From Leptospiraceae bacterium (GTDB lineage: Bacteria > Spirochaetota > Leptospiria > Leptospirales > Leptospiraceae), in NCBI GenBank assembly GCA_947458405.1, contig CANGZW010000032.1, forward strand, positions 1 through 34,204: DNA of 34,204 nucleotides. The letters run 5' to 3'. Within the stretch, counting starts at the first letter, position 1. Every line of letters starts with the position of its first letter. The notes below the pieces were generated by a model. It saw only the letters and a list, made by a program, of their open reading frames with translations, was not told where the DNA came from and ran no database searches. Made by a program: the position numbers and the translations under genes. Shown in pieces: positions 33,127-34,204 of the stretch.

Positions 33127-33774
33127 ATGCCCGACTACCATGATATTTTCTAGAAATTACTCTTTCTAAGAATAGACTGTGTTATAGAATTTTTTAGATT
33201 TCTTCTGAAAGAGAAATCGAAACTGCTGGAGTTAGAGTATATAGGTATCATTCAGGATATCTACTATCGAAAAAAGAAATTACTGTATGACATTCTCTAT
33301 GAAATTCCCATTCGGAATTCTGATGAGAAACTGTATTTTCTCTTAGAACACAAGTCAAGAAGAGCCATTGATTTTCAGATACAGATGATCAAGTACAAAC
33401 ACGCCATTCACAAGTGGCAAAAGAAAGAGTTTGGTAAGATGTCATCTATTATTCCCGTCTTGTTTTACCAGGGGCTCGACAATTGGGATCCTGAGAGTGA
33501 ACTAGATGAAATCAGAAGGCTCTCAAATCCGATTCTTTCGAGAAATAGGGAAGAGTTTTTGGTCTTTGATCTTCGAAAAATAGACCCAGTAAGGAATTTT
33601 GAGAGTCTTGAATTAAGGGCGGGAATCCTGCTCTTAAAAATCATTAGAGTTCCCTGGGATGAATTTATAGAAGGTTGGGGTAAAATCAAGGAAATCTTAA
33701 ATTCTATGGAAGAAGCAAAAAGAATTGTGGTTCGGCAGGCTCACCAACCGGGCTTGATAGTTTATAGGGTATAA
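33127..33774 (+). pseudogene. Rpn-family (transposase_31) PD-(D/E)XK nuclease gene with in-frame amber codon
   Basis: One continuous frame from the ATG at 33127 (AAGGGG 7 bases upstream) encodes MPDYHDIF, then TAG at 33151-33153 (codon 9), then a normal Rpn catalytic region: CVIEFFRFLL, DILYEIPIRNSDEKLYFLLE and EHKSRRAIDFQIQMIKYKHA, with Asp55 and Glu74-x-Lys76 in the nuclease motif. The only interruption is the amber codon; a single change from TAT/TAC would give HDIFYKLL. No ATG, GTG or TTG follows in frame until 33385 (after the nuclease motif). The C-terminus ends abnormally in RIVVRQAHQPGLIVYRV, where a repeat-derived segment has been added. Rpn proteins are DNA nucleases linked to recombination and anti-phage defence. 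Probably inactive unless the stop is read through. Confidence 0.75.
33728..33746. repeat. Short dispersed repeat, copy A
   Basis: TGGTTCGGCAGGCTCACCA, related to the copy at 34033-34052 (shared TGGTTCG, then GCTCAC). It gives the coding signature VVRQAHQP when read on the plus strand and VGEPAEP on the minus strand, typical of small palindromic repeats scattered in many genomes. A bulged hairpin (GGTT-GG with CC-AACC) can form. Confidence 0.55.
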
Positions 33775-33800
33775 ATTTATTTGGTGTTGAGGAGACGATT

Positions 33801-33971
33801 ATGGGAAAACAAAAAACTTTAACCTTGTATGAAAGGGCTTTGGAAGAAGGTGAATTTAAAAACAAGTTGGAAACTGCTCGAAAAATGCGGGATGAAGGAT
33901 TTAATCCAGTGCAAATTATCCGAATCACAGATCTTTCGGAAGTTCAGCTTAGAGAGAATGGGATTTTGTAG
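33801..33971 (+). CDS. Rpn C-terminal tail-like small protein (56 aa)
   Basis: A 56-codon ORF, MGKQKTLTLYERALEEGEF ... KLETARKMRDEGFNPVQIIR ... LSEVQLRENGIL, stop TAG at 33969-33971. GAGGAG lies 6 bases before the ATG, one of the best ribosome binding sites in the window. The (G)KLETARKM..EGF...I...T.LS pattern is the helical C-terminal tail common to Rpn nucleases. It lies in a different frame from the nuclease gene and 26 bases beyond its stop, so it cannot be translated as a continuous product. In E. coli, short C-terminal Rpn products made from internal starts act as antitoxins to the full nuclease; this could be a free-standing equivalent, or simply the severed end of a decayed gene. Confidence 0.6.
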   Translation: MGKQKTLTLYERALEEGEFKNKLETARKMRDEGFNPVQIIRITDLSEVQLRENGIL

Positions 33972-34009
33972 TGTAGTACCTCACCCCCACTATACAGAAT
34001 TGTACTACA
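33972..34009. other. Inverted repeat following the small Rpn tail ORF
   Basis: TGTAGTAC (33972-33979) and GTACTACA (34002-34009) form an 8-base-arm dyad with a 22-base loop directly after the stop of the small ORF. There is no following T-tract, so it is not a typical intrinsic terminator. It uses the heptamer that recurs across the window. Confidence 0.45.
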
Positions 34010-34032
34010 TTTCAGCATACACCGCCTCTCCA

Positions 34033-34052
34033 TGGTTCGTCTACGCTCACTA
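34033..34052. repeat. Short dispersed repeat, copy B
   Basis: TGGTTCGTCTACGCTCACTA, sharing TGGTTCG and GCTCAC with copy A at 33728-33746. It lies in the spacer between the small Rpn tail ORF and the gene start at 34187. The rest of the spacer (34053-34186) shows only a short GTATC-TGA-GATAC palindrome and no gene. Confidence 0.45.
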
Positions 34053-34186
34053 CAAGTCCCGTATCTGAGATACAAAAGAGAGGGGTTACTTTATAGTTAC
34101 CAGTATTTGTTTACCAACAATTAAACACTAAACATAAGTTTATTTATCTTGCCCTTTTTTCTCTAAAAAATAAAGCTATCCCTATT

Positions 34187-34204
34187 ATGCCATCTTCTCA
34201 CGAC
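34187..34204 (+). CDS. First codons of a possible second Rpn-family gene (cut by window edge)
   Basis: ATG at 34187 begins M-P-S-S-H-D up to the last base of the window. The Rpn pseudogene 1 kb upstream begins M-P-D-Y-H-D, and an M-P-x-x-H-D start is typical of this nuclease family. Only six codons are visible and no clear SD sequence precedes the ATG, so this is a prediction from pattern match alone. Confidence 0.4.

Follow-up and report, generated by a model that had tools for sequence, protein, structure and literature searches.

An RpnS-like tail reading frame behind a broken, probably decaying Rpn nuclease gene in a Leptospiraceae genome

The 3' end of the window, by which we mean the whole 34,204-nt stretch of DNA analysed here, carries a short open reading frame (ORF) related to the antitoxin RpnS, directly behind a nuclease frame that is closed by a nonsense codon. 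We consider it probable that the two are what is left of one member of a multi-copy Rpn toxin-antitoxin gene (YhgA-like, PF04754), a copy that is decaying, lies in an Rpn array and has been split by a repeat-bearing replacement. The features concerned are the following:

33127 to 33774, + strand: Rpn nuclease region (PF04754), a pseudogene, with its ATG at 33127, a TAG as codon 9 (33151-33153) and a TAA at 33772-33774.
33385 to 33774, + strand: 129-aa ORF that remains 3' of the TAG and begins past the catalytic D/E/K region.
33726 to 33750, + strand: 25-nt core of a dispersed repeat, TGTGGTTCGGCAGGCTCACCAACCG, which recurs away from Rpn ORFs, twice at C85 and once at C144, as well as in further genomes of the phylum.
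33727 to 33786, + strand: linker of 60 nt, which stands where the fused gene has 61 other nt (DLEEEMLDYIFRSRLESREL) and is common to the copies C17, C41, C70a and, in part, C115.
33789 to 33794, + strand: GAGGAG, a Shine-Dalgarno-like (SD-like) site with a 6-nt spacer to the ATG at 33801, in a position identical to that of the internal start in fused Rpn genes.
33801 to 33971, + strand: stand-alone RpnS-like tail ORF of 56 aa, from the ATG at 33801 to the last base of the stop codon at 33971, modelled as three helices (residues 9-32, 36-43 and 47-52).
34187 to 34204, + strand: first six codons (MPSSHD) of the next Rpn gene, which runs off the end of the contig.

An earlier note on this DNA had described a 56-codon Rpn-tail ORF with its own GAGGAG outside the nuclease frame, and this description is correct: the tail is read in a different frame from the nuclease, and its ATG lies 26 nt past the nuclease TAA. 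The 56-residue peptide is a true Rpn tail, with dozens of matches in its own genome (48-51 in the tail searches, about 48 being Rpn tails), many of which are the in-frame ends of fused Rpn proteins of 288-345 aa; the best fused copy is matched with an E-value of 4e-17 and 75% identity. The peptide also matches TIGR01784, the Rpn model, at its C-terminal end (E 4e-6), and a profile made from twelve tails finds the sequence of the E. coli RpnA-S crystal structure (PDB 7TH0) with an E-value of 6.9e-7. Thus, the tail ORF is not a product of chance. Matches to IcmE and to CAP repeats, placed above 7TH0 in the profile ranking, were set aside as sums over many weak repeats. The AlphaFold2 model of the tail consists of three helices (pLDDT 80), and its top Foldseek match in the PDB is 7TH0, with a TM-score of 0.91 of the target, an rmsd of 0.7, 39% identity over 44 columns and a probability of 1.00, although with a chain of this length the E-value is no better than 0.16. 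Sequence and model together show the tail to be truly homologous to RpnA-S, the E. coli antitoxin. It therefore has the homology and the fold of an RpnS and, at the level of the sequence, an internal start with its own ribosome binding site (RBS), with the same SD-ATG as in its fused relatives; what it does not have is a location in frame inside its own RpnL gene. PADLOC gave no match. The second half of the tail (33870-33971) has a dN/dS near 1 against the fused copy C12 and 84% DNA identity to an orphan tail at C21, a mixed affinity that suggests tail shuffling by recombination.

The nuclease in front of this tail is dead. Its frame is homologous to residues 1-200 of the fused proteins and then runs into a foreign C-terminus, VVRQAHQPGLIVYRV, and the TAA. 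With a cut-off of 21 bits, the window ORF still matches PF04754 (Transposase_31) at 34 bits, and its counterpart in C17 does so at 81.6 bits. The PD-(D/E)XK active site residues D55, E74 and K76, intact in C17, C41 and C12, are encoded in the window but untranslatable, as they lie between the TAG at 33151 and the next start at 33385; the 129-aa ORF cannot be a nuclease because it starts beyond them. That a tail of the RpnS antitoxin kind stands apart from a nuclease which a stop codon has silenced, as the earlier note had proposed, is thus borne out by the TAG and by the match to RpnA-S in sequence and fold.

The strong RBS, which the earlier note had pointed out, has another origin than a newly made gene start of the tail: the same GAGGAG and ATG occur in frame inside the fused relatives. 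Indeed, (i) GAGG-N5-8-ATG is found at the same intragenic place in all 17 YhgA-like (PF04754) tail ORFs of the genome that were examined. (ii) The internal start carries the motif [IL]E..(.)M, whose first Glu is encoded by GAG in 17/17, while the share of GAG in the rest of these genes is 28% (p 4e-10, uncorrected for shared ancestry); at six other conserved Glu columns GAA is used in 52 of 60 cases. (iii) Another genus of the family has the same motif with GAGG in 3/3 Rpn genes. (iv) Among 73 Rpn ORFs from many phyla, an SD-like site precedes 36% of the Met codons in the last 35-95 codons and 7% of those elsewhere, an enrichment to which a Glu/Gly-rich composition may contribute. The conserved motif and the GAG bias make the strong RBS of the window an inherited internal antitoxin start, and the pattern agrees with the internal start published for RpnS (PMC10327210).

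The genome contains both fused and split forms of this gene. Fused in-frame homologues are C12 (288 aa), C142 (291 aa), C70b (291 aa) and C44 (296 aa), C12 being the closest, with 90% nuclease DNA identity to the window; split copies are the window, C17, C41, C70a and C115, all of which break at the same place, the match to the fused proteins running to residue 200 and resuming at ~221 in another frame. At this point, just 5' of the internal start, the split copies have the linker of ~60 nt, starting with GTGGTTCGGCAGGCTCACCAACCG, and C12 has 61 nt that look unrelated, a net change of -1 nt (counted by eye) that sets the frames of nuclease and tail apart. Fused homologues and a split by a small indel or repeat insertion are what the earlier note had named as evidence against its reading, and the in-frame homologues and the 61-to-60-nt repeat-bearing replacement are of just this kind. 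Its split antitoxin survives in part: a separate RpnS-like tail and a nuclease stop are there, a novel start and a new arrangement are not. The start shared with fused relatives, the linker common to four other copies and the Rpn gene start at 34187-34204 all go beyond what it had contained.

The linker was absent from 7 other genomes of the family, and among 393 genomes of the phylum only the bare repeat core was found, outside Rpn genes, in 2. With its short GC-rich core at dispersed sites, some of them in distant genomes of the phylum, the repeat resembles REP-like dispersed palindromic repeats; unlike these, it has just 25 nt in common between sites, no inverted repeat was detected within the linker of the window, and a search of the genome for Y1_Tnp gave a single, weak match, so that a REP-like origin is only a candidate. 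The 3' half of the linker shows no more than suggestive signs of homology to the lost middle of the fused gene. Other roles for the linker were considered and rejected: a sigma-70 scan placed no promoter in it, and site numbers in the region equalled those of shuffled sequences; RNA structure gave no signal (z-score +0.64); and programmed frameshifting to rejoin the frames found no basis in the stops and slippery-looking bases, which by eye are not conserved among the split copies.

As for the history of the split, monophyly of the split copies is rejected in a tree of their nucleases (AU p 1.9e-5). The linkers of the window and C17 differ at 1 of 60 nt, with a nuclease dS of 0.60, and those of C17 and C41 at about 5 of 60, with a nuclease dS of 1.04; the high identity runs past the linker into flanking coding DNA. 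By these figures the linker is far younger than the genes, although its identity could instead reflect function. Since the split copies are not one clade by their nucleases and the linker appears younger than the genes, the data fit a recent spread of the linker among copies by gene conversion or duplication. In the fused relatives, nuclease and tail share one frame, with the conserved SD-ATG inside the gene at the tail start. In the window, the 60-nt linker with its 25-nt repeat has taken the place of the 61 nt before this start, which closed the nuclease frame and put the tail into a different one; the nonsense codon at nuclease position 9 was gained after or before the split. The linker most likely had a single origin (repeat insertion plus loss of the middle) followed by gene conversion among paralogues. 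Since an internal start of its own has been there all along, the tail should still be translatable as an RpnS-like dimer despite the death of the nuclease.

Rpn genes and remnants are hugely expanded in this one genome, with about 48 loci, shuffled tails and tandem arrays, against 1-5 tail matches per genome in the rest of the family; in the order, tails lie mostly within long fused frames, and a first scan of named genomes with the C17 nuclease found no relatives. Positions 33976-34204 resemble the leader that other Rpn genes have. The order of split copy followed by Rpn gene recurs in the window, at C41 (L026) and at C70 (L046), which suggests that a two-gene unit has been duplicated. At C15 (L043) and C21 (L034), the first ~20-35 Rpn codons are joined almost directly to the tail by an internal deletion, and at C3 (L041) an Rpn tail contains more than 10 KLEG four-residue repeats in a long run.

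The locus shares with the RpnL-RpnS system (E. coli RpnA, PDB 7TH0, PMC10327210) the tail sequence and fold, fused relatives with an internal SD-ATG, variation of a 4-aa repeat in the first helix, and multi-copy arrays. It departs from that system in that nuclease and tail of the window are in different frames, with a repeat-bearing linker between them and a nonsense codon in the nuclease. Nor is a physically separate tail gene a new arrangement in kind, as the earlier note had supposed, because rpnES/ypaA and a second rpnCS have been reported as separate genes beside Rpn genes (Zhong et al. 2023, PMC10327210); DUF4351-annotated proteins also count among the separately encoded RpnS. Whereas the separate RpnS of E. 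coli is a second copy downstream of a full-length rpn, the broken copy in the window has no tail but this one, and it follows a dead, tail-less nuclease instead of an intact rpn with a matching tail.

Could the solo tail, in the manner of E. coli rpnES/ypaA, have been retained as an antitoxin that acts in trans on Rpn proteins encoded elsewhere in the genome? Its intact frame and SD-ATG beside a dead nuclease of its own, the Rpn gene that starts downstream at 34187, and the expression of separate RpnS genes in E. coli (PMC10327210) speak for this, but we regard it as unlikely. RpnS acts on its cognate RpnL with the matching number of 4-aa repeats (Zhong et al. 2023, PMC10327210), whereas an extra repeat unit is absent from the window tail, C12 as the closest intact RpnL carries one unit more, none of the intact relatives in the closest subfamily has the same repeat region, and the downstream Rpn type has a different tail start. 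The other solo tails of the genome mostly have no start and look like deletion remnants. Given the need for repeat matching and the lack of an intact partner of the same length in this assembly, a draft that is 96% complete and may thus miss one, the tail is most likely a relic and not a working antitoxin.

A second alternative concerns C17 and C41, in which the linker would have turned a gene-within-gene toxin-antitoxin into two adjacent genes, a tail-less nuclease and a separate, co-expressed RpnS functioning together or with new roles, the window copy having died recently. Both copies have intact nucleases that keep D55, E74 and K76, an intact tail about 26 nt away, the same linker and the same extension RQAHQPxLIVYR[VA], and their nuclease dN/dS is about 0.12. 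In fact, these intact nucleases and the five open split tails, all with start and SD intact, argue against pure decay, which does not require them. We nevertheless consider such a pair quite unlikely. The dN/dS is uninformative on function after the split, since the nucleases diverged long before the linker arose and selection would mostly have acted ahead of the split; the split copies form no clade, and the nuclease is broken in 3 of 5 (the stop in the window, a frameshift in C70a, a 5' truncation in C115) against 0 of the 4 closest fused relatives, a difference that is not significant. Moreover, RpnS complexes RpnL apparently via the tail domain common to both (PMC10327210), so we would not expect a tail to bind a tail-less nuclease. 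Finally, an assembly or sequencing error in one intact fused gene is very improbable, for although the assembly is a draft of 198 contigs and the feature lies near a contig end, the same linker occurs in five copies on different contigs, and a 60-nt replacement is no single-base error.

Taken as a decaying split copy, the locus bears on the Rpn family in two ways. Tests of the intragenic RpnS start have reportedly covered E. coli and one clostridial gene to date, and the codon choice seen here supports its conservation in a Leptospiraceae-related lineage. The co-occurrence of fused copies with split ones in a single genome, in turn, offers a natural set for the effects of detaching an intragenic antitoxin from its toxin.
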